64,000 nucleotides of DNA, from the NCBI RefSeq assembly GCF_001591025.1, contig NZ_BCTZ01000017.1, positions 1-64,000 of the forward strand, given 5' to 3'. The stretch is from Sphingomonas soli NBRC 100801. Lineage in GTDB: Bacteria; Pseudomonadota; Alphaproteobacteria; Sphingomonadales; Sphingomonadaceae. Positions 43,654 through 61,226 of this stretch are shown here, one piece after another; within the stretch, counting starts at the first letter, position 1; the number at the start of each line of letters is the position of its first letter. Position numbers and translations under genes: made by a program. The notes under the pieces were generated by a model. The model worked only from the letters and a program-made list of their open reading frames with translations, did no database searches and was not told the origin of the DNA.

Positions 43654-43703
43654 CGAGTCCCCCGATGGGGAAGGTGGCATCGCACAACGCGGGAGGGAAT
43701 GGC

Positions 43704-45749
43704 GTGAATTATATCGGAACCTTGTTGTTGGGTCGTCCATTGCGGTGGTTGACCCTCCTCGCCTTAGCCTTTGGCACACCGCTGGCGGCACAGCCCACCG
43801 TCACTGCGCGCGATGCCGGGGGGATCTACGACCCGGTTACGATCGACGTGGAAGGACCTGAGCTCGATCAGGCAGCCGGTCCCAACCCCTTCGCTGACTA
43901 CAGGCTCGATGTCACGTTTAGTCGTTCCGGTCGCGAATACTCGGTGCCGGGCTATTTCGCGGCGTGCGCCGAGGCTGCCGATCGCGGTTGCACGAACGGG
44001 AAGCTGTGGCGCGCGCATTTTGTGCCCATGGAAGCGGGCGAATGGACCTATCGGGTCAGCTTCCGGACCGGCAAAGATGTTGTGGCAAACGACGAGCGTG
44101 GCGAAGCCGTTGTTGGGATTGATGGGACGACCGGCGGTTTCGCGGTATCCGCCACGCCCCGAAACAATGTCCGTGCCCGCGGGCTGCTGCAATATCGCGG
44201 AGAGCAATATTATCGCTGGTCCGGCACTGGCCGCCCATTCTTCAAGCTCGGGGTGGATTCACCGGAAAACATGCTGGCTTACGTCGATTTCGATCGCACG
44301 CCGAACGCGAGGGGTATGCGGCACGACTGGCAGCCTCACGTTCGGGATTATGACGTCCGGGCCAAGTCGTTCACCTGGGGCAACGAACGCGGCAAGGGAT
44401 TGCTGGGCCGCTTCGCCTATCTGCAAGGGGCCGGGGTCAACAGTGTCAGCATGCTCTTGTTCAACGTCGGCGGCGACGATCAGAATGTCATTCCTCAGGT
44501 CATGCGCGTGTCCGTGGACAGCTATGCAAAACTCTCGACCGCCGATCAGTGGGCTAAGGGCGTGGAGCACGACCGCTACGACGTTGTGAAGCTGGCCCAG
44601 TGGCAGCGTGCGCTTTCGTATGCCGACGAGCTTGGACTCCAGGTGCATTTCAAGATGCAGGAGGTCGAGAACAACTTTTTCATGGACGGCGGCAAGCTGG
44701 GCCGCGAGCGGAAGATCTACATCAGGGAGATGGTCGCACGCTTCAATCATTTCCTCGCCGTGTCCTGGAACATGGGCGAGGAGAATACGCAGGAGCCGGA
44801 TGTTGTTCGGGCGCAGGCGAAGTACATCGATTCCCTCGATCCCTATGACCACCCGCTCGTTATGGCGACCTATCCGCGCCAGAAAGAGCGCTTCCGGCCT
44901 CACCTCTCCAGCGGATCGTCCATGAACGGACTGGCGATGCAGGGGGCAACAATAGACTTTTCCGACATGCGTCCCGATATCGTGAAATGGACCAACGCCT
45001 CCATCAAGGCGGGGCGCCGCGTCGTGATCGGCTATGACGAATCCGGCACGGCGGGCCCGGGTGCGCCCATCGATGCCGGATTCGACCTGGACACACTGCC
45101 TACCAAGGGCGTCCTGTCGTTCAGTCCGGGCGACATCCCCCCCGGCCAGCCGGGCGCGGAGCCGATGTTGTCCAAAGATGCACTGGCGGGAGCACCGCCG
45201 AAGTTTCAGCCCGAAATTGCCCCGACGCGGGAGACCTACCGCCGGCACTCCATCTGGAATGCGCTGCTCGCCGGGGCGGCGGGGATGGAAATGTACTATG
45301 GCTGGACGAATAAGTGCCACGACCTGGGATGCGAGAACGACCGCACGCGCGCGCTGAAGTTCAGCGATGGCAGAAACGCAATCGCGTTCTTCAACGAACA
45401 TGTCGGTGAGCGTGCCCTCGGGATGGTTGCGGATGACGATCTGACCATCACCAGGACGGAATATGTCTTCGCCGATCACGGCAAGACCTACATCGTCTAT
45501 ACCCGCGCCGGCACGCCCGCTGCTCTGTCGCTGCTCGGCGAAAGCGGGCGCTACAGCGTCGATTGGTACGACGCCGTCGCGGGCGGCCCGTTGCGCAAGG
45601 GCAGCGTGAAGGAGATCTCCGGCGGACCCGCTTCGCTGGAATCGGGGGCCAGCCGGTCCGTCCGCAATTCGCGCTTCGCCCCGCTCGGGACGCCGCCGTC
45701 CGGCGGATCCGACGATTGGGTCGCGCTGGTTCGCAGGATTGCCGATTAG
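43704..45749 (+). CDS. DUF5060-containing glycoside hydrolase (clan A-like TIM barrel)
   Basis: A 681-aa secreted enzyme. A signal peptide (WLTLLALAFGTPLAAQ) leads into a DUF5060 beta-sandwich at about residues 30-125 (WRAHFVPMEAGEWTYRVSF). A TIM barrel follows (FFKLGVDSPENMLAYVDFD). Likely catalytic carboxylates are the Glu in NMGEENTQEP and the Glu in GYDESGTAG. A C-terminal sandwich of about 90 residues (YIVYTRAGTPAALSLL) is of the putative collagen-binding type. Start is GTG 43704 behind GGGAGGG; ATG 43665 is in frame but has no site. Relatives include apiosidase-like and other plant-sugar hydrolases; specificity is open. Confidence 0.85.
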   Translation: MNYIGTLLLGRPLRWLTLLALAFGTPLAAQPTVTARDAGGIYDPVTIDVEGPELDQAAGPNPFADYRLDVTFSRSGREYSVPGYFAACAEAADRGCTNGKLWRAHFVPMEAGEWTYRVSFRTGKDVVANDERGEAVVGIDGTTGGFAVSATPRNNVRARGLLQYRGEQYYRWSGTGRPFFKLGVDSPENMLAYVDFDRTPNARGMRHDWQPHVRDYDVRAKSFTWGNERGKGLLGRFAYLQGAGVNSVSMLLFNVGGDDQNVIPQVMRVSVDSYAKLSTADQWAKGVEHDRYDVVKLAQWQRALSYADELGLQVHFKMQEVENNFFMDGGKLGRERKIYIREMVARFNHFLAVSWNMGEENTQEPDVVRAQAKYIDSLDPYDHPLVMATYPRQKERFRPHLSSGSSMNGLAMQGATIDFSDMRPDIVKWTNASIKAGRRVVIGYDESGTAGPGAPIDAGFDLDTLPTKGVLSFSPGDIPPGQPGAEPMLSKDALAGAPPKFQPEIAPTRETYRRHSIWNALLAGAAGMEMYYGWTNKCHDLGCENDRTRALKFSDGRNAIAFFNEHVGERALGMVADDDLTITRTEYVFADHGKTYIVYTRAGTPAALSLLGESGRYSVDWYDAVAGGPLRKGSVKEISGGPASLESGASRSVRNSRFAPLGTPPSGGSDDWVALVRRIAD

Positions 45750-45874: not shown

Positions 45875-48091
45875 TCAGGCGATGCGGGGCAACCGGTCCA
45901 AAAGCTTGTCGAGCGTGAGTGGGTAATCGCGTACCCGCACGCCGCACGCGTTGTAGATCGCATTGGCAACCGCAGCAGCCACACCGGTGATGGCGAGCTC
46001 GCCTAGCCCCTTCGCCTTCATCGGGTTGGCCATCTCGTCCGCCTCATCAAGAAAGAGGACTTCCTGTTCCTGAATGTCGGCATGCACCGGCACCTCGTAA
46101 CTGGCGAGATCGTGGTTCACGAAGAAGCCGAACCGCTTATCGACGACCATCTCTTCCATCAGAGCCGCGCCCACGCCCATCGTCATCGCGCCGATCATCT
46201 GGCTGCGCGCCGATATCGGGTTGAGGATCCGTCCCGCCGCGCACACCGCAAGCATACGCCGCACCCGAACCTCGCCTGTGTAAGCATGAACCGCAGCCTC
46301 CACGAAGTGGGCACCAAACGTGGAGAGATGTACACTTCTGCTCATGTCGCCATATTCGATGGCGTCCTCGCCGGTGAGTGCGCCACCCCTAGCCACGTCG
46401 GCGAGACTTACCCGGCGCCGGTCGGCAACGACATGCCCGCTCTCGAACACGGCTCGATCGGGCTCCATGTTCAGCTGTCGGGCCACGGCTTCACGCAGCT
46501 TCACGCACGCCGCGTACACGCCAGAGGTCGAGTTCGACGCACCGAACTGCCCGCCGGACCCTGCCGCCGCCGGGAAGTGCGAGTCCCCGAGCCGCACCTC
46601 CACCATGTCGAGCGGCACGCCCATCATCTCCGCGGCGGTCTGTGCGATGATAGTATAGCTGCCCGTGCCGATGTCGGTCATGTCGGTCTCGACCAGGATG
46701 CGGCCCGACGGTTCCAGCCGCACGCGTGCGGCCGACTTCATCGCCGGGCTGTTGTGGAAGGCCGAGGATACACCGAGACCGACCCACCAGCTGCCATCGC
46801 GCCGCTGGGCGGGTCGCATCGGGCGCCGGCTCCACCCGAACTTCGCCGCACCGTCGCGGAGACAGCGCACCAGCTGGCGCTCGGAGAAGCGCTTGTCCGG
46901 CTTCTCGGGATCCACCTGCGTGTCGTTGCGAATACGGAACTCGACCGGATCGAGCCCCAGCTTCTCGGCCATCTCGTCCATGGCGATCTCGAGCGCCATC
47001 ATGCCAGGCGCCGCTCCGGGTGCGCGCATTGAGTTGCCCTCGGGCAGGTCGAGTACCGCCTGGCGCATCGACGTGAGCCGATTGAGTCCTGCATAGAGAA
47101 GGCGCGTCTGTGCGGTGGCTGTTACCGGCCTTCCACCCTCCAGATTGCCCGAAAGGCTCTCATGGGCGATCGCGCCGATCCGCCCCTCTCGGTCGCAGCC
47201 GAGCCGAATGCGCTGGATCGTCGCTGCACGGTGCACCGTGTTGTTCATCGTCTGCGGACGGGTGATCGCGACCTTCACCGGACGCCCGACCGCACGCGCG
47301 CCCAGCGCCGCGAGCACGACGTCGGCTCGGATGCGGAGCTTCGCTCCGAATCCCCCGCCCACATAGGGCGATAGCACGCGGATTTTCTCCTGCGGGATCA
47401 GGAAGGTATGCGAGAGGTCTTGCACCGCCCAGGCGACCATCTGGGTGGATGTCCAAACGGTAAGCTCGTCGCCAGACCATGCCGCGATGGAGGCGTGTGG
47501 CTCCATCATCTGGTGGCTCTGGTCTGGGGTCGAGTAGGTGGCGTCCAGCTTGACCGGGGCGGCGGCGAACGCCGCCTCGAAATCCCCGGTGCGCAGAGCT
47601 GCTGCTGCGCTTCCCTCGCCGCTGCTCCCGCCCACCAAAGGCGCCGTATCCTTCTGCGCCGCCAGGTCGTAGCGGCCCTGAACACGGGCATAGTCGACAC
47701 GGATCAGCGTCGCGGCCGCCCGTGCCTGCTCGAAGGTTTCCGCTACGATCAGGGCGATTGCCTGGTCGTAGTGCTGGATCTCGGGGCCGGCGAGCAGCCT
47801 GGCGGTGTTGTGCCGCGACGTCGCGAACGGTCCGGCATTGGCGGCGGTGACGATCTTAAGCACGCCCGGCGCCCGCTCGGCATCGGCCGTATCGATGCGC
47901 TTGATCCGGCCCTTGGCGATCGCGGATCCCAGCATATAGCCATAGGCCTGGTTCGCCACGACGTCGTGCCGCTCGTAAGCATACGGCGCAGCGCCCGTGG
48001 TCTTCACGGGACCGTCGATCCGGCTGGTGGTGCGGCCAACCACCTTCATGCGGTCGATCGGGTTGGGGCCGGATGGCGCGTCGAACTTCAT
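45875..48091 (-). CDS. paoC: Periplasmic aldehyde oxidoreductase, molybdenum-binding subunit PaoC type
   Basis: The catalytic subunit of a xanthine-oxidase-family enzyme, 738 aa (E. coli PaoC is close to this length). It begins with the usual [21 protein letters not shown] segment. Molybdopterin cytosine dinucleotide contact regions include [30 protein letters not shown] and [12 protein letters not shown]. The conserved catalytic Glu is in [10 protein letters not shown] near residue 700. It oxidises aldehydes to carboxylic acids in the periplasm, exported together with the Tat-bearing small subunit. ATG 48091 overlaps the paoB stop by 4 bases. The maturation chaperone gene paoD is not next to it. 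Confidence 0.92.
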
Positions 48092-49041
48092 GCTGCGCTC
48101 GCTTTGGTCATAACCGCGGCGAGCGTGCGCTCGACCAGCGGAACCTTGAATGCGTTGTCCTCGGTCGGTCGCGCGCCCGCCATCAGCCTGGCGGCAACGG
48201 TGCCGGACCCCTGCGGGATGGCGGCATCGGCCGCGGGAACGCGCCAGGGCTTCGGGGCGACGCCGCCAACGGCAACGCGCCCGGTTCCGCCCCGCTGTAG
48301 GACAGCGGCAACGGAGATGAGCGCGAAGGCGTAGGACGCCCGATCGCGCACCTTTTGGTATATATGCCGGCCGCCGAGCGGACGCGGCAGGGTGACCGAA
48401 GTGATCAGCTCGCCGGGTTTCAGCTCGGTCTCGATGTGGGGCGTGTCGCCCCATAGCCGGTGAAAATCGGCGATCGGAATCGCACGGGTTGCGCCCTGCG
48501 GATCGACCGTCTCGATGGTCGCATCGAGCACGCGAAGAGCTACGGCCATGTCGCCAGGATATGTCGCGATGCAAGCGTCGGACGTGCCGATCACGCCGAG
48601 CTGGCGCGAGAAGCCACCGATCGCCGCGCACCCGGAACCGGGCTGCCGCTTGTTGCACGGCTGGTTGGGGTCATAGAAATAGGGGCAGCGGGTCCGCTGG
48701 AGCAGGTTGCCAGCAGTCGTTGCCCTGTTGCGGAGCTGACCGGATGCGCCAGAGACGATTGCGCGTGCGAGCACCGCATAGTCGCGGCGGACACGAGGGT
48801 CCGAAGCCAGCGCGGTGTTTGTCACGAGCGCACCGACCCGCATGCCTCCCTCCGGCGTCTTTTCGATCCGGTCCAGCCCAAGATCTTGCAGGTCGACCAG
48901 ATGCGTCGGGATCTCGATCTGCAACTTCATCAGGTCGAGCAGGTTCGTGCCGCCAGCGAGGAACTTGGCGCCCGGCGTGCCGGCGACGGCTGCGGCAGCC
49001 TCCGACGGCGACTTGGCCCGCTCGTAGGTGAAAGCCTTCAT
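48088..49041 (-). CDS. paoB: Periplasmic aldehyde oxidoreductase, FAD-binding subunit PaoB type
   Basis: A 317-aa FAD subunit of the xanthine-oxidase family. The FAD segment is [15 protein letters not shown] near residue 27. A PaoB-specific stretch [20 protein letters not shown] followed by SGC supplies the Cys residues that hold a [4Fe-4S] cluster in the E. coli enzyme, which most family members lack. That insertion is the main reason for the Pao assignment. ATG 49041 overlaps the paoA stop by 4 bases. Confidence 0.93.
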
Positions 49042-49673
49042 GTGCGTGCACCAGCGACTTCCGCCATTGCCTCGACAATGTTGGAATAGGCGCCGCACCG
49101 GCAGATGTTGCCGCTCATGCGCTCGCGCAGCTCAGCGTCGCTCGGGTCTGGCCGGGCCGCGATATCGACCTGCGCATGGCTCGGAACGCCGCGCTTGATC
49201 TCGTCCAGCACCGCTACTGCCGAGCAGATCTGCCCAGGGGTGCAGTAACCGCACTGGTAGCTATCGTGTTTGATGAAGGCGGCCTGCATCGGATGCAGCT
49301 GTTCGATCGTGCCCAGCCCCTCGATCGTGGTCACCGCGTCGCCGCTATGCTGGACCGCCAGGCTGAGGCAGGCGTTTATCCGCTCGCCGTTCACCAGGAC
49401 GGTGCAGGCACCGCACTGGCCATGGTCGCATCCCTTCTTCGTGCCGGTGAGCTTCAAATGCTCGCGTAACGCATCGAGGAGCGTCGTGCGGGTATCCAGG
49501 TCCAGATCGTAACGCGTTCCATTGACCTCGAACGAGACCGGCATCGTGGCGGGGTTCGGCCGCAGCGGCGTCGCTTGAGTACCAGCACTCGGCACTGCGG
49601 TGGCCGCCGCCGCCGCGGCGCTGCCGACGAGCAGTCCCCGCCGCGAGAGTTCCAGCTTCCTGTCGTCGTCCAT
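49038..49673 (-). CDS. paoA: Periplasmic aldehyde oxidoreductase, [2Fe-2S] subunit PaoA type
   Basis: A 211-aa iron-sulfur subunit that passes electrons from the Mo site to FAD. A twin-Arg signal ([20 protein letters not shown]) precedes two [2Fe-2S] domains: the plant ferredoxin-like one with [12 protein letters not shown] and a later Cys, and the helical one with [11 protein letters not shown] and GNICRCGAY. The twin-Arg signal sends the folded three-subunit complex to the periplasm. Start ATG 49673 follows AGGGATGG at a rather long distance. Its upstream region lies within 90 bases of the MFS gene stop, so it is probably the distal part of the operon. Confidence 0.93.
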
Positions 49674-49762
49674 GTACAACCATCCCTGCGGCGCTGAGCT
49701 GCGTGTCCCGGAGATGAGAACCCAAGAGCGCGATGCGACGTTTGCCCGGTGATATGCCTGTT

Positions 49763-51022
49763 CTACGCTGAACTGGTGGAAGCTTCGGGTCCGGACCGCC
49801 TGGACCGTATGAACATCCAAAGCATCGCTGCGGTGAGGTTCAGCGCAACGGCGGTGAGGAAGAACGGGGTCACTGAATTGAAGGCGCTGTACAAGTAGGG
49901 AAAGGCAAGTCCGGTTGCGAAGGCACCGAATGCACCGACCATGTTCATCTGACCGGTGACCGTTCCCGCCCTTTCACCGCCAACATCGATGCAGAATGCC
50001 CAGGATGGCGGGAGGGTCATGTCGGCACCGAACACGGTAAGGCTTAGAAAAGCCACTGCCACTATTGCCGTTTCGGCATTGAGGCTTCCGACAAGCCCGA
50101 TCGCCGCCAGGACGAAACCAGTGATAGCCACATAACGCAGCGATGCGATGCTGCCTGTCCTTCGTACCGCGAAATCGGATCCCACTCCGCCCAGCCAGTT
50201 GCCTGCCGCGCCGGCCGCCAGAGGGATGGCGGTCATGACGCCGGTTTCGACCGTGGTCAGACCGTAGGTCTTCTGCAGATATGGGAACAGCCAGGACAGC
50301 GCGAAGAAGAAGGTGAAACACGACGCGAAATACTGCGTGACGACGAGCCACAGGCCGCCCTGATGCGACGCGGACCCGTGCCTGCTCGGATCGGCGTGCG
50401 GCGTGGCAAGTGTTCGCCCCGCGACGATCTGCTGGACTTCCGCTTCGGGCATTCCGAAATGGTCTTCAGGCCGATCCCTGAACAGCACGTACCAAGCGAA
50501 GACCCATAACAGGCCGGCTGCGCCCATGATGACAAAGGTTTGCCGCCACCCAAAGGTCGAAAGCATCCAGGCGAGGCCGGGAAGCGCCAGCGCAGCGCCG
50601 ACGCGCGTACCCGATAGGTTGATGCCGTTGGCAATGCCGCGTTCGGCGGTGGGAAGCCAGCTGTACACAGCCTTGGCACAGGCCGGCATCGCGCCGGCTT
50701 CCGCCGCGCCGAACAAAAAGCGGAACACCAGCAGGGAGAGAAAGCCCCAGGCTGCCCCGGTCAGCGCGGTGAACCCGGACCAGAGGACGACGATCGCAGC
50801 CAGCGTCTTGCGCGGCCCGATGCGATCGGCAAGCTGGCCGGAGGGTACCTGAAACAATGCGTAACCGAGCGCGAACGCGGAGATCACCCAGCCGAACTGG
50901 GTGTCGCTCAGTTGGAGGTCGCCCGTGATCTGCTCCTTCGCGGCGGAGATCACGACGCGGTCCACGTACAGCAGCATGGTGAGGAGGAACGTCCCCACCA
51001 ACAGGAAATGTCGCCGTCCCAT
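49763..51022 (-). CDS. MFS transporter, anion:cation symporter-like
   Basis: A 419-aa carrier with 12 predicted helices. The MFS loop motif appears as GQLADRIGPRKT after helix 2, and the fourth-helix region FRFLFGAAEAGAMPACAKAV plus WLPTAERGIANGI are typical of the ACS group (tartrate, glucarate, phthalate and other organic acid uptake). It lies between the dehydroquinase-like gene and paoABC on the same strand. It probably imports the organic acid that the operon degrades. Confidence 0.9.
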   Translation of the reverse strand: MGRRHFLLVGTFLLTMLLYVDRVVISAAKEQITGDLQLSDTQFGWVISAFALGYALFQVPSGQLADRIGPRKTLAAIVVLWSGFTALTGAAWGFLSLLVFRFLFGAAEAGAMPACAKAVYSWLPTAERGIANGINLSGTRVGAALALPGLAWMLSTFGWRQTFVIMGAAGLLWVFAWYVLFRDRPEDHFGMPEAEVQQIVAGRTLATPHADPSRHGSASHQGGLWLVVTQYFASCFTFFFALSWLFPYLQKTYGLTTVETGVMTAIPLAAGAAGNWLGGVGSDFAVRRTGSIASLRYVAITGFVLAAIGLVGSLNAETAIVAVAFLSLTVFGADMTLPPSWAFCIDVGGERAGTVTGQMNMVGAFGAFATGLAFPYLYSAFNSVTPFFLTAVALNLTAAMLWMFIRSRRSGPEASTSSA

Positions 51023-51119: not shown

Positions 51120-51665
51120 TCAGGCCGTCTCCGGGTCCGCGAGTTCGCCGCCGAGAAAACCCTTGTCGTCGAGTGCCATCACCAGGCCCACCAAAGCGGC
51201 GATGTAGCTATATTGGCGCAACCCCATGCAGAGGCCGGTCGCGGTGTGCGTGAAGGTCGAGATCAACTTGCCGCTGGCCAGACCGCGCGGGGTTCCCGGT
51301 GCGCCGGAGATGTTCGCGAAATGCACCTCGATGGCCGGTTTGGTCGTATCCTCAAGCGCGTGACGGACGGCCTCGCCCATCGTCGTCAGACCCGCCGGGT
51401 TGATGATATAGCCGTCGACCCGATTGGCCGATCCGTGGATATATTCAAGAATCTCGCCCATGTGGTTGGACGAGAAGGTCTCGACCTCCACGCCGATATC
51501 CGAACCCGCGGACACGACAAAGGCCTTGAGGTCGTCCAGCGACCGGATCGTCCCGTAAACCTGTTTGCTGCGGGCGCCCAGGCTGGACATGTTCGGCCCG
51601 TCGATCAGGGCGATCCGGTGGCGGCGGGAACCGGTTCGGTTCAGGGTGAATGGGTGGGTTGTCAT
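51120..51665 (-). CDS. Divergent type II 3-dehydroquinase homologue
   Basis: A 181-aa protein of the AroQ fold. Family hallmarks are clear: IDGPNMSSLGARSKQVYG (Arg32 and Tyr37 retained), SSNHMGEILEYIH, IINPAG and AIEVHFANIS with Glu113 and His115. Aligned to ordinary dehydroquinases, the active-site His after INPxxYT is Thr95 and the Asp after LR is His102. The lid/second half (GAPGTPRGLASGKLISTFTH) is also unlike the usual REPFRHHS. Its place in a catabolic operon and these changes argue against a shikimate role; a dehydratase or isomerase on another ring acid is possible. ATG 51665 follows GAGAGGACCAAG. Confidence 0.8.
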   Translation of the reverse strand: MTTHPFTLNRTGSRRHRIALIDGPNMSSLGARSKQVYGTIRSLDDLKAFVVSAGSDIGVEVETFSSNHMGEILEYIHGSANRVDGYIINPAGLTTMGEAVRHALEDTTKPAIEVHFANISGAPGTPRGLASGKLISTFTHTATGLCMGLRQYSYIAALVGLVMALDDKGFLGGELADPETA

Positions 51666-51702: not shown

Positions 51703-52479
51703 TTAGCTGCGTAACGTCCGCAATGAGGCCAGGCCGCCATCCACCACGACGAACGATCCGGTGACGGAGCTACATGCGGGGTTGATCAGGAAGGACACGG
51801 CGTGCGCGACCTCGGTCGGATCGACCATCTTTGCCGTAGGTTGTCGCTGCTCATATTCGCGGCGCTGCGCGGCAGGGTCGCTCGCCGCGTCGATCAGCGC
51901 GTGCATGAAGGGCGTTTCGACGGTGCCGGGGACGACGCCGTTCACGCGAATGCCTTCGTGTACCAGGTCGGCCGCGATACTAAGCGTCATGCTGTGAATC
52001 GCACCTTTGGACGCCGAATAGGCTGCGCGTTGGGTGATGCCGGACGTGGCCGAGCATGACGAGATGTTGACGATCGCGGGCGAGCGCGAGGTTCGCAGCA
52101 GCGGCAATGCACAGACGGTGGCGCGCCGGTACCCCATCAGGTTCACGTTCAGCAGCTCGAGCCATTGTTCGTCGCTGCCATCTTCGACGCCGCCAACGAA
52201 CGCGACACCGGCGTTGTTCACCAGCGCGTCGAGACCTCCCGCAGCCTGCCCGATCTTCTCGAACGCCTGGCGAACGCTGTCCGACGAGCGGAGGTCGGTG
52301 TGGATAAAGGCTTCCGCGCCGCCCGCCGATCCCTGTTTCAGGTCGAGATTGAAAACCGTGGCGCCCTGAACATTCAGCAGGGTGCAGATCGCATGCCCGA
52401 TTCCGGCGCTGCCGCCCGTCACCGCGACGCGCAGGCCGCGCGGCAGAGATCCGGACGACGCGGTGGCTGTGACGCTCAT
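51703..52479 (-). CDS. Short-chain dehydrogenase/reductase
   Basis: A 258-aa classical SDR. Motifs: VTGGSAGIG near residue 21, NNAGVAFVGG, the Ser in NISSCSATSG, YSASKGAIHSMTLSIAADL with Tyr/Lys, and VVVDGGLASLR at the end. It probably oxidises or reduces a hydroxyl/keto group on the pathway intermediate. Its start (ATG 52479) overlaps the upstream hydrolase stop by 4 bases. A 37-base gap separates its stop from the start of the dehydroquinase-like gene, so co-transcription is likely. Confidence 0.92.
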   Translation of the reverse strand: MSVTATASSGSLPRGLRVAVTGGSAGIGHAICTLLNVQGATVFNLDLKQGSAGGAEAFIHTDLRSSDSVRQAFEKIGQAAGGLDALVNNAGVAFVGGVEDGSDEQWLELLNVNLMGYRRATVCALPLLRTSRSPAIVNISSCSATSGITQRAAYSASKGAIHSMTLSIAADLVHEGIRVNGVVPGTVETPFMHALIDAASDPAAQRREYEQRQPTAKMVDPTEVAHAVSFLINPACSSVTGSFVVVDGGLASLRTLRS

Positions 52480-53285
52480 TGCTGGGGCACCTTCCAATAT
52501 TGCATGAGCTGCCGCGCGAGCCGATCCGGATCGGTCAGCGGCAGCATGTGCCCGCCACGCGGCAGCACTTCGAGCTGAAGCCCGTCACGCGCCTTCGCGC
52601 CTCCGGCAAGTACGCCGTCGAACGACGAGACCGGGACCGAGGCATCGTCGGCGGCAGCGATGCAGAGCGTCGGCGGCAGCTCCGTAGCTTCCAGCGGGAG
52701 GCGTCCGAACCCTGCTAGCGACCGCCAGCCATCAGCATATCCTGTGGCGGAAACCGCCGAGATCGCGTCGCGCCCATAGGCGAATGCGCTGTGGTAGGCG
52801 GGTAGGTCTTCAAGGCCGGCGAACCACCGTTTCAGCGATTGTTCGACGGTGTCCGCCATGCCACCAGCTTCGATCTGTCGTGCCCGTTCGGCAAAGCTCG
52901 GCATGGATTCGAGCGGGGTGGCAACGAGCGTGAGGCTTTGCACGTCACTGCGCAGGGACACTGCCGCAAGCGTGGCGACAACACCGCCAAGGGCGTGGCC
53001 CAGCAGGTGAACCGGCCGGTCGACCCAGCGGATCATGGCCAGCGCATCGTCGACCAGCGCCTGAAGCGTGAAGCCCGTGTCGCCTGCACGGCTGCCATGG
53101 CCGCAATGGTCATAGGAAATGACGTCCAGCGATCCGCCAAGCGCATCGCGAAGCGGATCGAATGCGCGCCGGTCCAGACCCAGCGCGTGCAGGAGCAATA
53201 TGGCCTGTCCCTCAGGCGTTCCCGACCTGCGCACGATCATGCTTCGCCCGCCCACAAGGATGGTGCCGTCCTTGTACCGGCTCAT
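52476..53285 (-). CDS. Alpha/beta hydrolase-fold protein lacking the nucleophilic Ser
   Basis: A 269-aa member of the fold (3-oxoadipate enol-lactonase-like size). It has LLLHALGLDRRAFDPL, YDHCGHGSRAGD, Asp in AAADDASVP and His in PRGGHMLPL. The nucleophile elbow reads GHALGG, with Ala98 where Ser, Cys or Asp is expected; the codon at 52992-52994 is GCC. Classical hydrolase chemistry should therefore be lost. The neighbour at 53282 keeps GHSFGG, and the two look like diverged tandem copies. It may bind, isomerise or act as a partner of that enzyme. Stop and start overlap neighbours by 4 bases on both sides. Confidence 0.88.
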   Translation of the reverse strand: MSRYKDGTILVGGRSMIVRRSGTPEGQAILLLHALGLDRRAFDPLRDALGGSLDVISYDHCGHGSRAGDTGFTLQALVDDALAMIRWVDRPVHLLGHALGGVVATLAAVSLRSDVQSLTLVATPLESMPSFAERARQIEAGGMADTVEQSLKRWFAGLEDLPAYHSAFAYGRDAISAVSATGYADGWRSLAGFGRLPLEATELPPTLCIAAADDASVPVSSFDGVLAGGAKARDGLQLEVLPRGGHMLPLTDPDRLARQLMQYWKVPQQ

Positions 53286-54079
53286 GCGCGCGCCCCCGCT
53301 GGCACGATGTCTGCGCCTTCAACGGCGACCCAATGCGCCTCGAGCAATCGAGCGGCATCGGGTGCCATGGTCAGGGGAAAGAGGTGCCCGCCCGTCAGCA
53401 GCGTCTCGAGTCCGGCACCCGCCCCGGTCGCGTTGCCATTGATCGCATCCACGATCCCCGACATCACCGAGGGCGGCGTCGACAGGTCGTCCGCAGAGGC
53501 GATGCACAGAGTTGCCGGCGGAGAATCCAGACTGGAGAAATCGCCGAAAGCGGCGAGTGCCAGCCAGGTCGATGCGATGGCGTCGGCGGGCAGGGAGGTC
53601 AGCGAGCGCGATGCATAGTCGATATGCGGCTGCCAGTGCGGCGGCGGCGCATCGCCGAACCAGCGGGCGAGGGTGGCTTCCCTGAACGCTTCGACACCGT
53701 TGAGGCGGGTAGCATCGGCGCGATCGGCATAGAGTTTTCCTCCCGCCGAAGGCGTGGCAAGAAGCGCGAGCGACGCGATATCATGGCCATCCCCGCGAAG
53801 CCGCTGGCAGGCGAGTGCCGCGACCGCGCCGCCGAACGAATGTCCCAACAGATGGACCGGGCCGTCCGCTACCTGCCGGATACGCTCTGCGGCGTGGGTG
53901 ACATGATCCTCAAGGCGATCGCTCGCACGATCGCGCATCGTTCCATGGCCCAGAAGATCGACCGCAATCAGGGGCCGATCGTCCGACAGGCTTCCCCGAA
54001 GCGGCTCGAACGAATGGCCGTCGAGGCCAAGCGCGTGGAACGCGATCACAGGGATCGCTGGCCGCGCCCGGCCATTCAT
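53282..54079 (-). CDS. Alpha/beta hydrolase
   Basis: A 265-aa hydrolase with complete triad elements: VIAFHALGLDGHSFEPL (oxyanion region), nucleophile elbow LLGHSFGGA with Ser81, Asp in IASADDLSTP and His in LTGGHLFPL. Start ATG 54079 overlaps the CoA-transferase stop by 4 bases; an upstream in-frame ATG exists but is antisense-like. It probably cleaves an ester, enol-lactone or C-C bond in the operon's pathway. It is similar in layout to the next gene, which lacks the Ser. Confidence 0.9.
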   Translation of the reverse strand: MNGRARPAIPVIAFHALGLDGHSFEPLRGSLSDDRPLIAVDLLGHGTMRDRASDRLEDHVTHAAERIRQVADGPVHLLGHSFGGAVAALACQRLRGDGHDIASLALLATPSAGGKLYADRADATRLNGVEAFREATLARWFGDAPPPHWQPHIDYASRSLTSLPADAIASTWLALAAFGDFSSLDSPPATLCIASADDLSTPPSVMSGIVDAINGNATGAGAGLETLLTGGHLFPLTMAPDAARLLEAHWVAVEGADIVPAGARA

Positions 54080-55290
54080 GCCGAGCCATTCCCCAGCACA
54101 CCGTCGGCCAGCAGGTCGTCCGCGACGGATCGCGGTATATCCAGCCACGCCGACAAGACGGAAACATTGTCCTGGCCGAGGGTGGGCGGATAGGTCGGCT
54201 CCGGGCCCCTGCCACTGGCGAACTTGATGGGATTGCCCACCACCTCGATCCGCTTCCCCTTGGGCGTTTGCATCTCGACGATCATGCCGCGATTTGCGGC
54301 ACGCGCATCGTCAAGGGCCTCCGGAACGCGCTTGATCAGCGCGGCGGGGACGTCGTTGCTCTGGAGGTTGTCGACATGCTCGACTGCATCCTTTTCAAGG
54401 AATGCCGCCTCCAGCAACTCCCACAGTTCCACACGATTCTTCAGTCGGTCGGAGGCGGTCGCGAAACGCGCATCACCCGCCAACTCTGACAGATCGAGCG
54501 ATCTGCACAGCCCCTGCCACATCTTTTCGGTGTTCGCCGTCACGACCAGTTCGCGGCCATCCCGGGCCTTGAACGTTCGATAGGTCGGGATCGAATCGTG
54601 CCCCGCGCCCTGAGGGCCCGGATCCGTTCCTGCGACAAGCGAATAGGTACCTTGATACGAGAGCATCGCGAGCTGGCAATCGAGCATTGCGACATCGATA
54701 ATCTCAGCGCGTTCCGTAGAATTTCGGCGATGCAGGGCTGCGCAAATGGCGATGCAGGCATAGAGACCCGCCACCGTGTCACCAGCCGGGATGCCAAGCC
54801 TGACCGCGGGTCGGCCCGGCTCCCCGGTAATGCTCATCACGCCCGACAGCGCCTGCACGATCATGTCGTAGGCGGGCTTTGTGCTGTCCGGCCCGGCCTG
54901 ACCGAAGCCGCTGATCGACGCCCAAATCAACCGCGGATGGCTGGCCGCGATCGTCTCGATGTCCAGTCCGATCTTGCGCGCGACGCCGGGCCGGAAGTTC
55001 TCGACCACGACATCTGCTTTCGCGACGAGATCCAGCAGCAACTGCCGCCCGCGATCCTTCTTCAAGTCGAGCGAGACGCTTTGCTTGTTTCGGTTGATCC
55101 CGAGAAAGTACAGGCTTTCCCCGTCCAGGAAATGAGGGGGGATGTGTCGGCTGGAATCGCCGTCGGGCGATTCGACCTTGATCACCTCGGCACCAAGGTC
55201 CGCAAGAATCTGCGTGCAAAAAGGTCCGGAAAGAAATGTGGTGAGATCGAGGACGCGTACACCATGTAGCGGCTGGCCGGGCGAACTCAT
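54076..55290 (-). CDS. CaiB/BaiF family (class III) CoA-transferase
   Basis: A 404-aa enzyme that moves CoA between a donor thioester and an acid. It starts GVRVLDLTTFLSGPFCTQIL then ADLGAEVIKVE, the family N-terminus. It has GINRNKQSVSLDLKKDRG and ENFRPGVARKIGLD, and the catalytic Asp in DVAMLDCQLAML. In this operon it would activate the acid substrate for the thiolase step. ATG 55290 overlaps the IclR stop and its own stop overlaps the hydrolase start, by 4 bases each. Confidence 0.94.
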   Translation of the reverse strand: MSSPGQPLHGVRVLDLTTFLSGPFCTQILADLGAEVIKVESPDGDSSRHIPPHFLDGESLYFLGINRNKQSVSLDLKKDRGRQLLLDLVAKADVVVENFRPGVARKIGLDIETIAASHPRLIWASISGFGQAGPDSTKPAYDMIVQALSGVMSITGEPGRPAVRLGIPAGDTVAGLYACIAICAALHRRNSTERAEIIDVAMLDCQLAMLSYQGTYSLVAGTDPGPQGAGHDSIPTYRTFKARDGRELVVTANTEKMWQGLCRSLDLSELAGDARFATASDRLKNRVELWELLEAAFLEKDAVEHVDNLQSNDVPAALIKRVPEALDDARAANRGMIVEMQTPKGKRIEVVGNPIKFASGRGPEPTYPPTLGQDNVSVLSAWLDIPRSVADDLLADGVLGNGSA

Positions 55291-56066
55291 CTGGCCGCTC
55301 CGAGAAACCGCGAGATCTCGTCGCTCTTTTCCATGATATCCTTAACGATGGCATCGATACTGGCGTGGGGCATGCGCTCCTGTGGAGAGGTCATGCAGAG
55401 GCAGCCGAAAACGCCTTTTGCGTCGAAGACCGGAGCGGCGACGCCTCGCGCACCGCGCAGTTTTTGCCCTTCGCTGATCGCGTATCCCCGCTCGCGCACT
55501 TCGCGTAGTTCCGCCATTCTCGCACGCAAGGACGGCGGCTTCTCTCCCGACACCGACGGGGCGGCCTCGCGAAGCAGGATTTGCTCGATTTCATTCTCCG
55601 GCAAGAATGCGAGGATCGCCTTGCCAGACGCTCCCCAATATAACGACAGCGGCCGGTGAAGATCGATCTGGTAGGTCAGCATCTGGCTACCGTCAGCACG
55701 GTAGACAAAGTTCATCGCCCGATCAGCGGCGACATACCGTCCAAGCAGAACCGTCTCATTATACTTTGCGGCCAGTGCATCCACGATGGGCTGGGCGATA
55801 GTGACCTGGGACATGCCCTGGATCACGCGCGCCGAGATCCGGTAGAAGCGCGGCCCGATGCGATAGATGCCGCTGCCCGACGCGGCTACAAACCCTTCAG
55901 CGGCGAGCGCGTTGAGCAGCCGGTGGGCGGTAGATGGCGGCACCTTCAGATCGGCGCTGACCTGCTTGACCGTTACCGGGCCCGGCGCGTCGGCCAAGTG
56001 CGCCAACAGGTAGAGGGCGCGGCTGATGCTGCTCGTGCCCGGTCCTTCGTCGCTGTTCCCCGTCAT
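55287..56066 (-). CDS. IclR-family transcriptional regulator
   Basis: A 259-aa regulator. The N-terminal winged HTH is at residues about 15-70 (SSISRALYLLAHLADAPGPV, KVPPSTAHRLLNALAAEGFV). The C-terminal effector domain has ETVLLGRYVAADRAMNFVYR, LYWGASGKAILAFLPE and RERGYAISEGQKLRGARGVA. IclR proteins often control aromatic acid catabolism and sense the substrate. Unusually, it is embedded inside the operon, with 4-base overlaps on both sides (thiolase before, CoA-transferase after), so its level follows operon expression. Confidence 0.94.
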   Translation of the reverse strand: MTGNSDEGPGTSSISRALYLLAHLADAPGPVTVKQVSADLKVPPSTAHRLLNALAAEGFVAASGSGIYRIGPRFYRISARVIQGMSQVTIAQPIVDALAAKYNETVLLGRYVAADRAMNFVYRADGSQMLTYQIDLHRPLSLYWGASGKAILAFLPENEIEQILLREAAPSVSGEKPPSLRARMAELREVRERGYAISEGQKLRGARGVAAPVFDAKGVFGCLCMTSPQERMPHASIDAIVKDIMEKSDEISRFLGAAR

Positions 56067-57214
56067 ATTCTGTCCAGTGCATTCAAGATGTGGATGGCAC
56101 ATGCGCCATGATCGAGGCGAGCTATGCCACCGCCGGTGACGTGCGTCATGCCGACGCGCGCATTCGGCACCTGTCGTGCGCCCGCCTGACCCGTCAGTTG
56201 CCAGTAGAGTTCGACAATTTGCGCGACACCGCTGCAGCCAACAGGATGCCCTTTCGAAAGCAGCCCGCCGCTGGGATTGACGACGACGGCGCCGCCGAAA
56301 CTGCTCTGGCCCGAGGTCAGAAAGGATGCGGATTCACCGGCTTCGCAGAGCCCTAGCGCTTCATAATATACAAGCTCTGCTATCGAGAATGCGTCGTGGA
56401 GTTCGACGACATCCAGGTCCTGCGGCCCAATTCCCGCCTGCTCGAAGGCATCGCTCGCGGAGTGCCGGGTAATCTCCGGTTGCAACATGTTGCGGAAGCC
56501 CGATGTCGGCGTTCCGGAGTGGAGCACAGATCCGCTAATTTCCACCGTCGGCAACGCTAGCCGCTTGCGAATGTCGTTGTTCACCACGATGACCGCGGCC
56601 GCGCCGTCGCCAGTCGGGCAGCATTGCAGCAGTGTAAGCGGGTCGGAAATCATCCGAGACGCGAGAACCTCTTCGACGCTGGTCGGTTTGCGCAGCTGTG
56701 CGAAAGGATTCATCGCGCCATGGCGCCGCGCCTTTACGCTAACCTGCGCCAGCACGTCGGTCGACACGCCCCGTTCGTACAGGTATCGCCGGGCCCGCAT
56801 CGCATACAAAGCGGGCATGACCATGCCGCTCTGCACTTCGATATCTTCCGCGACCAGCGGCAAGGTGCCCCCACCGAACTGGGTGAGCTTATCGACCCCG
56901 ATTACGAGCGCCGCAGCATGTTCCCCGCTGCACACGCTCTTCCAGGCGAGATGCAAGGCGCTGGCACCGCCCGAACACGCATTGTCGATGTTGAAGATCG
57001 GAACGCCGCCGATCCCCACCTCCTTGACGATGCGTTGGCCCGTAAGCATTCCGCCGAAGGCATGACCGCAATACACGGCGTCGATTTCGCTCGCTTCGAG
57101 ACCAGCGTCTCGCATTGCCTTGCGGACCGGCGGCACCGCCAATCCGCCGTAGCTTGAATTACGATGTTTCCCCATCGGGATCATCGCGCCGCTCACGATG
57201 AAGGCGCGGCTCAC
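56063..57214 (-). CDS. Thiolase-family protein (acetyl-CoA acetyltransferase / SCP-x like)
   Basis: A 383-aa thiolase. The nucleophilic Cys80 is in IDNACSGGASAL, followed by VELHDAFSIAELVYYEALGL and the C-terminal KGHPVGCSGVAQIVEL, both typical of the SCP-x/thiolase group that pairs with DUF35 proteins. It probably cleaves (or retro-aldol splits) a CoA thioester. Start is GTG 57214, overlapping the DUF35 stop by 4 bases (GTGA) and giving MSRAFIVSGAMIPMGK. Its partner gene lies directly upstream, as usual for this pair. Confidence 0.92.
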   Translation of the reverse strand: MSRAFIVSGAMIPMGKHRNSSYGGLAVPPVRKAMRDAGLEASEIDAVYCGHAFGGMLTGQRIVKEVGIGGVPIFNIDNACSGGASALHLAWKSVCSGEHAAALVIGVDKLTQFGGGTLPLVAEDIEVQSGMVMPALYAMRARRYLYERGVSTDVLAQVSVKARRHGAMNPFAQLRKPTSVEEVLASRMISDPLTLLQCCPTGDGAAAVIVVNNDIRKRLALPTVEISGSVLHSGTPTSGFRNMLQPEITRHSASDAFEQAGIGPQDLDVVELHDAFSIAELVYYEALGLCEAGESASFLTSGQSSFGGAVVVNPSGGLLSKGHPVGCSGVAQIVELYWQLTGQAGARQVPNARVGMTHVTGGGIARLDHGACAIHILNALDRI

Positions 57215-57612
57215 TGGCCTTCCCCCGCGACAGGCTCGACGAACCATTCGGAACCCTCGCTGGCAAGGCGAACGGCACAGTCACAGCCCAATGCGTGATG
57301 GGAGCCCCGCACCTTTGCCAAGACACGGACATCTCCGGGAAAATCTACATAGCCGATCGTGTACGGCACGGACTGCGAAGAGGACACATGGACTGTCGAG
57401 AAGCTGTAAAGGACGCCTTCAGGACCGACCTCGGCGTGCTGTGCGCCAGCCGTGTGGGGAAAACTGCGCCGCCCTTGCGCAGTGATCGCGCAGAGCAAGA
57501 ATGTCGCGCCATCACGCACGACAAAGGTGGGCAGATCGGACCCATCCAAATCTGGAATCGGATGTCCCTCGCTGGGTACGCTCTCACCAGGGGGACACTG
57601 ATCGGTGTTCAT
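57211..57612 (-). CDS. DUF35 OB-fold protein with degenerate zinc ribbon
   Basis: A 133-aa member of the Zn-ribbon/OB-fold family that forms complexes with thiolase-like partners. The OB part is clear (GVLYSFSTVHV, PYTIGYVDFPGDVRVLAKV, then GCDCAVRLASEG). In the usual rubredoxin-like N-terminal section only Cys41 remains (FLLCAITAQGRRSFPHTAGA); the other three expected Cys positions are Ala, Ala and His. Zinc binding is therefore doubtful. It is the first gene of the minus-strand operon. ATG 57612 is chosen; the longer frame upstream is not protein-like. Confidence 0.85.
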   Translation of the reverse strand: MNTDQCPPGESVPSEGHPIPDLDGSDLPTFVVRDGATFLLCAITAQGRRSFPHTAGAQHAEVGPEGVLYSFSTVHVSSSQSVPYTIGYVDFPGDVRVLAKVRGSHHALGCDCAVRLASEGSEWFVEPVAGEGQ

Positions 57613-57929
57613 ATAATTCCATTCAATGGAAAGGCTTTCCAACAGAAGAAATAAATAGCAGCGCCGTCGCGCCAGTTCAACCCTGAAGATGACGGTGGAT
57701 TTGAAACCTGGGGGCAAAAGGAATCGATGCGCGGCCGCCCATTCTCGTTCGCGCTAGTTCCCGGGTCGGCTCTGCTCGGGTTTGAGCATTTGTGATCGAG
57801 GCTGCGTGTGCCCAATGCCTACCCAGGCCCGATCACTGGCGCCCGGCTAAACCAGCGCCAGCTTTTTGCGGCTCGCCTGAAAGCTGACCGTCAGTTCCCG
57901 GCCCAAAAGGCCGATTTCCAAACTCCGTT
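57613..57929. other. Non-coding stretch upstream of the catabolic operon
   Basis: This 317-base stretch should contain the operon promoter on the minus strand, with AT-rich sequence near 57640-57665 close to the first gene. I see no convincing open frame and no clear dyad for the IclR protein. The part nearer 57930 is next to the transposase relic and may be left from the same insertion. Confidence 0.45.
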
Positions 57930-58129: not shown

Positions 58130-60157
58130 TTAGCCGGAAGCTTCCAGCATCTCGGTTGGCAGGGTGAAGTTGAAGGTCACTCCGGCCTGGTCGTTCGGAG
58201 AGATCCATATCCTGCCCGCATGCGCCTCGATGATCGACTGGCAGATCTTCAGGCCGATGCCCATTCCGTCGCTCTTGGTAGTGGTAAAGGGCTGGAAGAG
58301 CCGCTTCATCACCTCGCCGTCTATGCCCGGCCCGGTGTCCGAAACCGATATTAGCGCCGAGCGGCGATCATCGAGCCGCGTTGCGATCGTCAGCACCCGC
58401 TGCTGGCTGCGGCGCATCGCCTCCATCGCGTTGCGGCACAGGTTCACGATAACCTGTTGGATCTGGACCTTGTTGAGCAACATCGGCGGAAGCCCTGGGG
58501 CAAGATCGACCTCGAGCCGGGTGCTCGAATAGGCGGTGCCCACCGTGCCGAGCGCGATGGCTTCCTCGACAACCTTGTTCAGGTCCTCGACCGTGCGGTT
58601 CGTCTCGCGCTTCTCGATGAAATCACGGAGGTTCCGGATGATATCGCCCGCGCGCGCCAATTGGCGCGATGCGTTTTCCACCATCTCCGCTGCGGCATGG
58701 TCCATGTCCTCGACGTTCAAGCGACGGCGCGCGACTTCCAGGAAGTTCATGCCCGCGGTCAGGGGCTGGTTTAATTCGTGCGCCAGCGTCGCCGCCATCA
58801 TGCCCATCGCGTTCCACCGCGATACGTGCGCCAGCTCGCTCTGCAACTGGCTTACCGCGATCTCGTTGCGCCGCCGCTCGACCAGCACGGCCTGCATCGC
58901 ATCCAGCTCGCGCGCTGCGCGAGCCTCCACGGCTTCGAGTTCCTTCTGCGCCAATTGCTCCCGGATCAGGCGCGCTTGGTCTTCAAATTGCTTGCGGCGG
59001 AGTTGCGCCAGCACGCGCGATCGCAGGATGTCGAAGTCGCTGGACTTGCAGATATAATCGTCGGCGCCGGCGTCCAGACCCCGCACCATCGATTCCCGGT
59101 CTTCCATCGCAGTCAGCATGATCACCGGGGTGCCGCGCAGCAGCGGAACCGATTTGATCTGCCTGCATGTGTCGTGGCCGTCCATGCCGGGCATCATCAG
59201 GTCCAGCAAAATGCAATCCACGGGCTGCTCTACCAGCAGTTCGAGCGCCTCTTCGCCGGAGCGCGCAAGCGCAACATCATATCCCTCGGCGCGCAGCTCG
59301 CTGGCGAGATGCTGGAGATAGGTTTCGCTGTCGTCGACGGCGAGAATCTTCTTGGGGCCAAGCAGGCTGGGACTGGCAAGCTCGCCGGCGTCCAGCCGTT
59401 CGGCGCTGCGCAGCACGGCTCCGAGCCTTGCCAGCAGGATTTCGATCTCGTCGCTCTTGCGAACGAACGCATCGGCCCCCGCGTCGAGCGCGCGGACCTC
59501 CGCCGCCAGATCGGTCGATGCGGTCAGCAGGATGCACGGGATGCGGCGCAGCGCCGCATCCAGCCGCACGCGCCGGATCACCGATGGGCCGTCAATGTCT
59601 GGCAGCACGCCATCCACCACCATTGCCGTGGGCCGCGCGGCGGCGGCGAGCCGCAGGCCGTCTTCGCCCGAACTGGCCGTCAGCACATGATAGGCTGCAT
59701 CCTCAAGCGCCTGCTTCAGCTGCTCGCGATAGGTGGGGCTGTCGTCGATCACCAGGATGGTCTGGCCGACCAGTGTCTCGTCGGTCTGGGCGCGGCGCAG
59801 CAATTCGCCCGCGCGCGCGACGACATAGCTCAGGTCATAGGGTTTGCCGACATATTCGTCGGCCCCCGTCCTCAGCCCGCGCAGCCGGTCCTGCACCTCG
59901 GTCTCGCTCGACAGCAGCATGACTGCGACGGCGTTCGTCCCGGGGGCTGCCTTGATCTCGGCAAGAAACTCGACCCCGTCGCCGTCAGGCAAGCGCACGT
60001 CGAGTACGATCAGGCCAAACTCCTCGCGCGAAAGCACCTCCCGGGCTTCGCCGAGCGTGGAGCAGGCTTTGACGGTGAGGTTGGCTTCCTCGAACGCTTC
60101 CTTGAGGTTCATGCGAACCGTGAAGCTGTCGTCGACGATCAGGACCCGGGTGTTCAT
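58130..60157 (-). CDS. Triple-receiver hybrid histidine kinase
   Basis: A 675-aa signalling protein with three receiver domains in a row at the N-terminus: about 3-118 (IVLDVRLPDGDG), 133-248 (MVVDGVLPDIDG) and 273-388 (ILLDLMMPGMDG). All keep the phosphoacceptor Asp and the Lys late in the domain. A coiled-coil (about 390-440) leads to a kinase core with the phospho-His in TLAHELNQPLTAG, N-box NLCRNAMEAM, SDTGPGID and DGMGIGLKIC. The HELNQPL box is FixL-like. There is no membrane segment, so it acts in the cytoplasm, probably receiving phosphate from the neighbouring CheA. Its ATG overlaps the cheB stop by 4 bases. Confidence 0.93.
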   Translation of the reverse strand: MNTRVLIVDDSFTVRMNLKEAFEEANLTVKACSTLGEAREVLSREEFGLIVLDVRLPDGDGVEFLAEIKAAPGTNAVAVMLLSSETEVQDRLRGLRTGADEYVGKPYDLSYVVARAGELLRRAQTDETLVGQTILVIDDSPTYREQLKQALEDAAYHVLTASSGEDGLRLAAAARPTAMVVDGVLPDIDGPSVIRRVRLDAALRRIPCILLTASTDLAAEVRALDAGADAFVRKSDEIEILLARLGAVLRSAERLDAGELASPSLLGPKKILAVDDSETYLQHLASELRAEGYDVALARSGEEALELLVEQPVDCILLDLMMPGMDGHDTCRQIKSVPLLRGTPVIMLTAMEDRESMVRGLDAGADDYICKSSDFDILRSRVLAQLRRKQFEDQARLIREQLAQKELEAVEARAARELDAMQAVLVERRRNEIAVSQLQSELAHVSRWNAMGMMAATLAHELNQPLTAGMNFLEVARRRLNVEDMDHAAAEMVENASRQLARAGDIIRNLRDFIEKRETNRTVEDLNKVVEEAIALGTVGTAYSSTRLEVDLAPGLPPMLLNKVQIQQVIVNLCRNAMEAMRRSQQRVLTIATRLDDRRSALISVSDTGPGIDGEVMKRLFQPFTTTKSDGMGIGLKICQSIIEAHAGRIWISPNDQAGVTFNFTLPTEMLEASG

Positions 60158-61224: not shown

Positions 61225-61226
61225 CG

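Follow-up and report, generated by a model that had tools for sequence, protein, structure and literature searches.

Genes of the AQL operon

The gene that we analyzed, AQL (type II dehydroquinase-like), lies on the minus strand of a 64,000-nucleotide stretch of DNA, referred to here in its entirety as the window. It runs from an ATG at 51665 to position 51120 and encodes 181 amino acids; an alternative in-frame ATG upstream, at 51740, would give a protein of 206 amino acids. AQL belongs to an operon in which all genes are on a single strand and are separated by short gaps or overlap, in the order OB, THIO, IclR, CoAT, ABH2, ABH1, SDR, AQL, MFS and molybdenum hydroxylase:

57211..57717, minus strand: OB, a ChsH2/BbsA-type OB-fold protein (Pfam OB_ChsH2_C, 8.5e-11), the presumed partner of THIO
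56063..57247, minus strand: THIO, a thiolase; nearest solved structure, a benzoylsuccinyl-CoA thiolase subunit (7pxp)
55287..56102, minus strand: IclR, an IclR-family regulator (profile matches)
54076..55290, minus strand: CoAT, a class III CoA-transferase (Pfam CoA_transf_3, 9.1e-125)
53282..54148, minus strand: ABH2, an alpha/beta hydrolase with an intact elbow, GHSFGG
52476..53285, minus strand: ABH1, an alpha/beta hydrolase; nearest NCBIfam models of the PcaD type, below cut-off
51703..52497, minus strand: SDR, a short-chain dehydrogenase (Pfam adh_short_C2, 6.7e-48)
51120..51665, minus strand: AQL, with T95 at the position of H81, H102 at that of D88, D22 at that of N9, a loop after H115 that is seven residues longer, and R127-G128
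49763..51022, minus strand: MFS, a major facilitator transporter (profile matches)
45875..49820, minus strand: molybdenum hydroxylase of three subunits (2Fe-2S, FAD, Mo), the Mo subunit recognised by Pfam

AQL matched Pfam DHquinase_II (PF01220; E 1.3e-28, 99.9 bits), which is its sole Pfam domain. A predicted model of a single AQL subunit (mean pLDDT 71.8, with residues 118-136 below 50) matched solved structures with Z of 15.4-17.3 over 118-152 residues; the 50 matches listed were type II dehydroquinases, joined by one designed particle (9clz) with an AroQ-like sequence. The domain match and the fold agree with the first-pass annotation of this gene, made from the DNA letters, as a type II dehydroquinase homologue. 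AQL scored below all five NCBIfam AroQ cut-offs, reaching 97.2 bits vs 169.85 for TIGR01088 and remaining under the cut-offs of 130-195 of the four AroQ subfamily models, and five AQL members that were scanned gave 95-103 bits vs the 169.85-bit cut-off. AQL thus has the fold and the Pfam domain of AroQ and falls short of the NCBIfam equivalog and subfamily scores. The canonical AroQ copy of the same genome (G000:C9:86158-86568, 190.7 bits) passed four of the five NCBIfam models, with 177.3 bits for TIGR01088. AQL is not the biosynthetic dehydroquinase of its genome and, judging from its sequence, is probably not a dehydroquinase at all.

THIO matched the BbsB subunit of benzoylsuccinyl-CoA thiolase with an E value of 4.8e-87 and has the same Cys and His motifs (ACSGG, GHPVG), and OB matched the BbsA model at 4.4e-9, below its cut-off. 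Both scores fell short of the equivalog cut-offs (THIO, 329.8 vs 750 bits; OB, 36.5 vs 250 bits); as judged by these profiles, the THIO/OB pair is of the same kind as benzoylsuccinyl-CoA thiolase and is not its equivalog. The nearest NCBIfam model of CoAT was succinate--glutarate CoA-transferase, below cut-off, and the operon hydrolases scored best against PcaD-type models, all below cut-off. The nucleophile elbow of ABH1 (GHALGG) has Ala for Ser, as does that of its counterpart in the same-genus genome G026 (locus L111), and ABH1 is the second protein of the operon with an altered active site. Neither an acyl-CoA dehydrogenase nor an enoyl-CoA hydratase was recognised among the nine window proteins scanned, and the operon has no obvious marker that names the ring.

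The 2Fe-2S and FAD subunits of the molybdenum hydroxylase were named by similarity to annotated genes at two plasmid loci (L048 and L049) and by their conservation in L111. This enzyme is common to the window and G026 and was not found in distant AQL operons; it is peripheral and may not belong to the pathway. Elsewhere in the window, upstream, positions 43464-45746 encode a large DUF5060 protein, near PhoD-like, dienelactone-hydrolase-family and TonB-dependent receptor genes. On the other side, positions 58130-64000 adjoin the operon and hold open reading frames whose translations read as a multi-receiver response regulator/kinase and as CheB-like, CheA-like and methyl-accepting-protein-like proteins.

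Active site and neighbouring loop of AQL

According to PMC6011038, the M. tuberculosis enzyme depends on Arg19, on Tyr24 and on Asp88 of the neighbouring subunit, all three being essential. There, Asp88' generates the tyrosinate that takes the C2 proton, the carboxylate is held by Asn75, Ser103 and backbone 102-103, and the leaving hydroxyl is protonated by His101. The C5 hydroxyl is held by His81 and Arg112 and the C4 hydroxyl by Asp88', while the tyrosine pKa is proposed to be lowered by Arg108 and Arg112. The first-pass annotation had treated the Asp as the partner of a His in the same chain; this was mistaken, since PMC6011038 describes it, for both the M. tuberculosis and the H. pylori enzymes, as one of three essential residues and as coming from the neighbouring subunit.

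Residues were counted, in M. tuberculosis numbering, in a 91-row alignment of 16 AQL rows, five plasmid relatives and 70 others, which are presumed dehydroquinases; L044, a fragment of 87 amino acids, was left out of the alignment and the trees. It was found that Arg32, Tyr37, Asn89, Glu113 and His115 of AQL correspond to R19, Y24, N75, E99 and H101, as had been claimed, and that these five residues, together with N12, are kept in all 16 AQL rows. The alignment also bore out the two substitutions that had been noted, Thr95 for the catalytic His and His102 for the Asp. Position D88 is His in 14 of the 16 AQL rows and Phe in the other two (L043 and L045), vs Asp in 70/70 of the comparison rows. 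Position H81 is Thr in 15 AQL rows and Ile in one; 62 of the 70 others have His there and eight have another residue (four Phe, two Thr, one Gln and one Asn), so that the missing His, although real, does not by itself mark AQL.

Furthermore, R108 is absent from every AQL row and present in 70/70 others, R112 is absent from every AQL row and present in 66/70 others, and position N9 is Asp throughout the AQL rows (D22 in the window); the first-pass annotation had overlooked these three changes. Position S103 is Ala in 12 AQL rows and Ser in four. All contacts to the C4 and C5 hydroxyls of dehydroquinate (His81, Arg112 and Asp88') are therefore replaced in 16/16 AQL rows. More telling than the noted pair of substitutions as such is that the essential Asp has gone and, with it, R108 and R112. 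Because the substitution pattern is conserved across the clade, it reflects neither chance nor sequencing error.

The lid, which the first-pass annotation had described as rebuilt, is six residues long and retains its Arg and Tyr in all 16 AQL rows, reading R-S-K-Q-V-Y vs most often R-E-P-E-I-Y. What is rebuilt is instead the loop after His101: from this residue to the next conserved Ser there are 19-20 residues in AQL (seven extra in the window) vs 13 in 70/70 others, and Arg127-Gly128 of the longer loop is invariant in a 12-row alignment. The structure model holds one chain; in the oligomer, His102 would lie next to Tyr37 of the neighbouring subunit.

Two observations concern other altered AroQ-like proteins. 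Four rows from the window's class (L055, L057, L060 and L076) share Phe in place of H81 and His in place of R112 and keep Asp88; the tree places the four together (100/97), and they may represent a further altered subgroup. In the product of an AroQ-like gene of a Pseudonocardia plasmid (L047:11992-12513), Phe replaces the catalytic lid Tyr24 and Trp replaces H81; the gene adjoins FAD oxidoreductase, fumarylacetoacetate-hydrolase-family and betaine-type ABC transporter genes.

Distribution, phylogeny and gene contexts of the AQL family

The contigs of 84,980 species genomes were scanned with six peptide patterns, which recovered 13 AQL members (L033-L045) and one canonical AroQ (L046); since only exact short matches are picked up in this way, there are more members than this count. 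Searches of smaller sets found one further AQL, in G026 and 97% identical, among 60 relatives of the window's genome; that of the window alone among 385 genomes of its class (E 3.3e-94, next match 5.9e-28); four, one of them new (G549), among 394 genomes from the family of L033's genome; and two, one of them new (G1194), among 394 genomes from the class of L042's genome. The AQL family is rare. It was found in both Pseudomonadota and Actinomycetota, the named hosts being Oceaniglobus, Marivita, other Rhodobacteraceae, Achromobacter, Aeromicrobium, Rhodococcoides, Nocardioides and Amycolatopsis, in addition to metagenome bins. Each of 11 whole genomes (G000, G026 and G444-G452; those of L035, L041, L043, L044, G549 and G1194 were left out) contains exactly two DHquinase_II genes, a canonical one scoring 181-201 bits and an AQL scoring 91-110 bits.

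In a 90-row tree, one branch set the 15 AQL rows apart from all other rows (100/88), and a long branch divided AQL plus the five plasmid rows from the 70 others (100/99); bootstrap support had not settled in this tree (correlation 0.975), and long branches met at L050. A quick second tree gave the same two splits, the SH-aLRT support being 99 on the canonical side and 86 on that of AQL. L040, whose protein is near-identical to that of L039, was dropped from both trees, and the long rows L050, L094 and L074 from the second only. Because the five plasmid rows did not form one group in the second tree (two changes), their branching order is unsure. Aeromicrobium (Actinomycetota), Achromobacter and other Pseudomonadota rows were mixed in one group (98/94), which points to horizontal transfer, and we infer that AQL spread in this way. 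The L035 contig was binned as Verrucomicrobia, yet its AQL groups with Rhodobacteraceae-type rows (97/43), and it may be misbinned.

Three sequence pairs demonstrated purifying selection on AQL. The dN/dS ratio was 0.04 (0.017/0.418) for the window vs G026 and 0.08 (0.090/1.09) for L034 vs L036; for L039 vs L040, dN and dS were 0 and 0.26, with 24 nucleotide changes and no amino acid change in 150 codons.

We then compared the neighbourhoods of 16 AQL genes, with L044 left out and L035 cut on one side, counting tblastn matches at E <=1e-8 as homologues; gene calling at the neighbouring loci relied on a crude rule of codon position, and some frames may be wrong. A CoAT homologue was found in 15 of the 16, at 55% or more in 12 and at 30-34% in three (L041, L045 and L113). 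The THIO and OB pair was present in 11/16 and SDR, at 46% or more, also in 11/16; in the ten loci other than the window's, SDR matched at 46-55% in nine and at 90% in L111. TRAP transporter homologues occurred at eight of the 15 loci other than the window, and every locus with an aligned hydrolase had at least one hydrolase with an intact nucleophile Ser. As a control, nine 20-kb stretches around canonical aroQ in the same genomes contained OB, THIO or CoAT in 0/9 cases; weak matches (27-34%) occurred in three of the nine, with SDR in two and TRAP, Mo hydroxylase, IclR and ABH3 in one each. The check proposed in the first-pass annotation, an AroQ tree with a clade tied to CoA-transferase/thiolase operons, thus came out favourably for the tree, with AQL outside the canonical rows twice, and in part for the operon link, since CoA-transferase and thiolase accompany 11 of the 16 members rather than all.

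Four contexts differ from the rest: L041 has an AMP-ligase, a PF04199 cyclase, an ADH, a 29% thiolase and an OB_ChsH2 gene; L113 an AMP-ligase, a cyclase and an isochorismatase-family gene; L045 an AMP-ligase and HMG-CoA-lyase-like and CitE-like genes; and L043 a P450 and a CMD family gene. CoA activation appears to be the theme of L041, L113 and L045, with carbon-carbon cleavage in addition in L041 and L045. Because these four contexts differ, no single pathway may explain all members.

Several other features of these loci were recorded. In G026 (L111:4387-7557), the THIO and CoAT matches each fall in two overlapping frames, so that both genes look frameshifted, through assembly error or decay. 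At two Rhodobacteraceae-type loci, an Apiosidase-family gene directly follows the TRAP genes beside AQL (L033:13553-14953, by Pfam; L034:13516-14919, a 77% homologue). This lead towards glycosides was dropped, as the window's own genome gave no PF13204 match, and the DUF5060 protein was rejected as a counterpart, as it had no BLASTP similarity to the Apiosidase-family protein of L033.

Finally, tandem AroQ-like genes were found on plasmids of Mesorhizobium sp. WSM4875 and Shinella zoogloeoides Teo12 (L048:11560-12498 and L049:4125-5019). One of the two chains retains the lid with its Arg and Tyr but carries Leu at 88; its partner has no lid and carries the Arg-His motif of AQL at 87-88. Since position 88 serves the site of the neighbouring subunit, a mixed oligomer would rebuild the Arg-Tyr-His set of AQL, and the plasmid sequences suggest an active site divided between two gene products, as if split between subunits. 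CoA-transferase and thiolase homologues were not found at L048 or L049. Neither chain, when used as a query, turned up another clear example of the pair: the lidless chain matched the window's AQL alone among the 385 genomes of its class at an E cut-off of 1e-20, and, beyond the two known plasmid records, the lid chain had eight plasmid matches, all at 41% or less, and the lidless chain 34, all below 60%, the best 12 of the 34 being at 40% or less. Public records name the plasmid relatives 'type II 3-dehydroquinate dehydratase', a label that is probably wrong.

Possible function and comparison with known systems

In AQL, an old scaffold has probably acquired a new enzyme activity, in a conserved cluster that appears to degrade an organic acid. 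We lean towards the interpretation that AQL is a paralogue of type II dehydroquinase with a catabolic role, removing water from a cyclic hydroxy-keto acid distinct from 3-dehydroquinate. The replacement of the 4,5-diol contacts favours another substrate; as most of the residues for elimination are kept, it is simplest to suppose that the dehydration chemistry is unchanged and acts on another acid. The first-pass annotation had suggested a new reaction on a related ring acid; the replaced contacts speak for the different substrate, but a new reaction exceeds the evidence, since the elimination residues are kept.

In the proposed mechanism, the lid Arg32 and Tyr37 would take the proton next to the ketone, and His102 of the neighbouring subunit would stand in for the Asp that makes Tyr37 a tyrosinate. 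The carboxylate would be held by Asn89 and the backbone after His115, and the leaving hydroxyl would be protonated by His115. Thr95, His102 and the longer loop with Arg127-Gly128 would replace the pocket that reads the 4,5-diol, and it is there that the substrate would differ. In the pathway, SDR would supply the ketone, AQL would form the enone, an alpha/beta hydrolase would open a ring or lactone, and the beta-keto acid so formed would be activated by CoA-transferase and then cleaved by the OB/thiolase pair, much like the PcaD, PcaIJ and PcaF steps of the beta-ketoadipate pathway. This route is a hypothesis modelled on the lower beta-ketoadipate pathway, and both the order of its steps and the identity of the substrate are conjectural. 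Several points count against this interpretation, among them the diverse contexts of the four outlying members. The Phe at position 88 in L043 and L045 means that the idea of a His base does not cover the whole clade; Ser103, given as a side-chain carboxylate ligand of known enzymes in PMC6011038, is Ala in 12/16 AQL rows; and ABH1 of the window lacks the nucleophile Ser.

A different chemistry on the dehydroquinase scaffold (isomerisation, hydration, or lactone or C-C hydrolysis), with Tyr37/Arg32 as general base and no loss of water, is unlikely but deserves consideration. AQL has lost the essential Asp base as well as the two Args that tune the tyrosine, the hydrolases and thiolase of the operon could use an isomerase, and gene contexts vary among members; however, Arg19, Tyr24, Asn75, Glu99 and His101, to which PMC6011038 assigns roles in the enolate and water-elimination steps, are kept in 16/16. 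We consider it improbable that AQL is an ordinary 3-dehydroquinate dehydratase of quinate/shikimate catabolism whose substitutions are tolerated. Catabolic AroQ copies are known from quinate use, AQL retains the catalytic Arg, Tyr, Asn, Glu and His, and H81 is also replaced in 8/70 other rows. However, D88, which PMC6011038 describes as essential in two characterised enzymes and which is present in 70/70 rows outside the clade, is absent in AQL, and the C4/C5 hydroxyl contacts are replaced. In addition, AQL is placed outside the canonical rows, and neither a shikimate/quinate dehydrogenase nor a dehydroshikimate dehydratase was recognised among the neighbouring genes scanned. It is more doubtful still that AQL is a non-catalytic partner or sensor binding a pathway metabolite: the essential base is lost and a lidless AroQ-like partner is present on two plasmids, but all 16 AQL rows have kept the acid His and, in the lid, the Arg and Tyr, and dN/dS is 0.04 for the window vs G026.

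Dehydration of another cyclic acid can be extended into a broader proposal, which we put forward tentatively. The dehydroquinase scaffold may have given rise to a new catabolic dehydratase with a neighbour-subunit His in place of the Asp, and a sister branch may split the site between a lid Arg/Tyr gene and a lidless His gene; together with the conserved CoA-transferase/thiolase operon, this would represent an undescribed mobile route that degrades an alicyclic acid. A literature search for a catabolic or altered AroQ or for this gene combination, with most subscription papers outside its scope, gave no title describing such an enzyme among those listed. Type II dehydroquinase is the textbook example of an enzyme of a single pathway, that of shikimate, and a drug target. 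A clade in which the diol pocket and the essential Asp are replaced would show how the dehydroquinase fold takes new substrates, and the AQL operon provides a handle on a catabolic pathway common to bacteria of at least two phyla.

Compared with AroQ (PF01220), AQL has the same fold, lid Arg/Tyr, Asn12, Asn75, Glu99 and His101, but differs in Asp88 to His, His81 to Thr, Asn9 to Asp, the lack of Arg108 and Arg112 and the loop with seven extra residues, as well as in its separate clade, catabolic operon and scores below cut-off. The plasmid pair (L048 and L049) is among its nearest outside relatives, and the lidless chain has the same Arg-His at 87-88, but the pair consists of two genes and its neighbours are molybdenum hydroxylase and semialdehyde dehydrogenase. 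The operon resembles the Bbs module of benzylsuccinate beta-oxidation, which uses a class III CoA-transferase, in this transferase and in the BbsAB-type thiolase/OB pair; unlike that module, it has dehydroquinase-like and PcaD-like proteins instead of an acyl-CoA dehydrogenase or hydratase among the nine proteins scanned. The lower beta-ketoadipate pathway, consisting of PcaD, PcaIJ and PcaF, is likewise similar in its PcaD-like hydrolase, CoA-transferase, thiolase and IclR-type regulator, whereas the CoA-transferase and thiolase of the AQL operon belong to other families and a dehydroquinase relative has been added.
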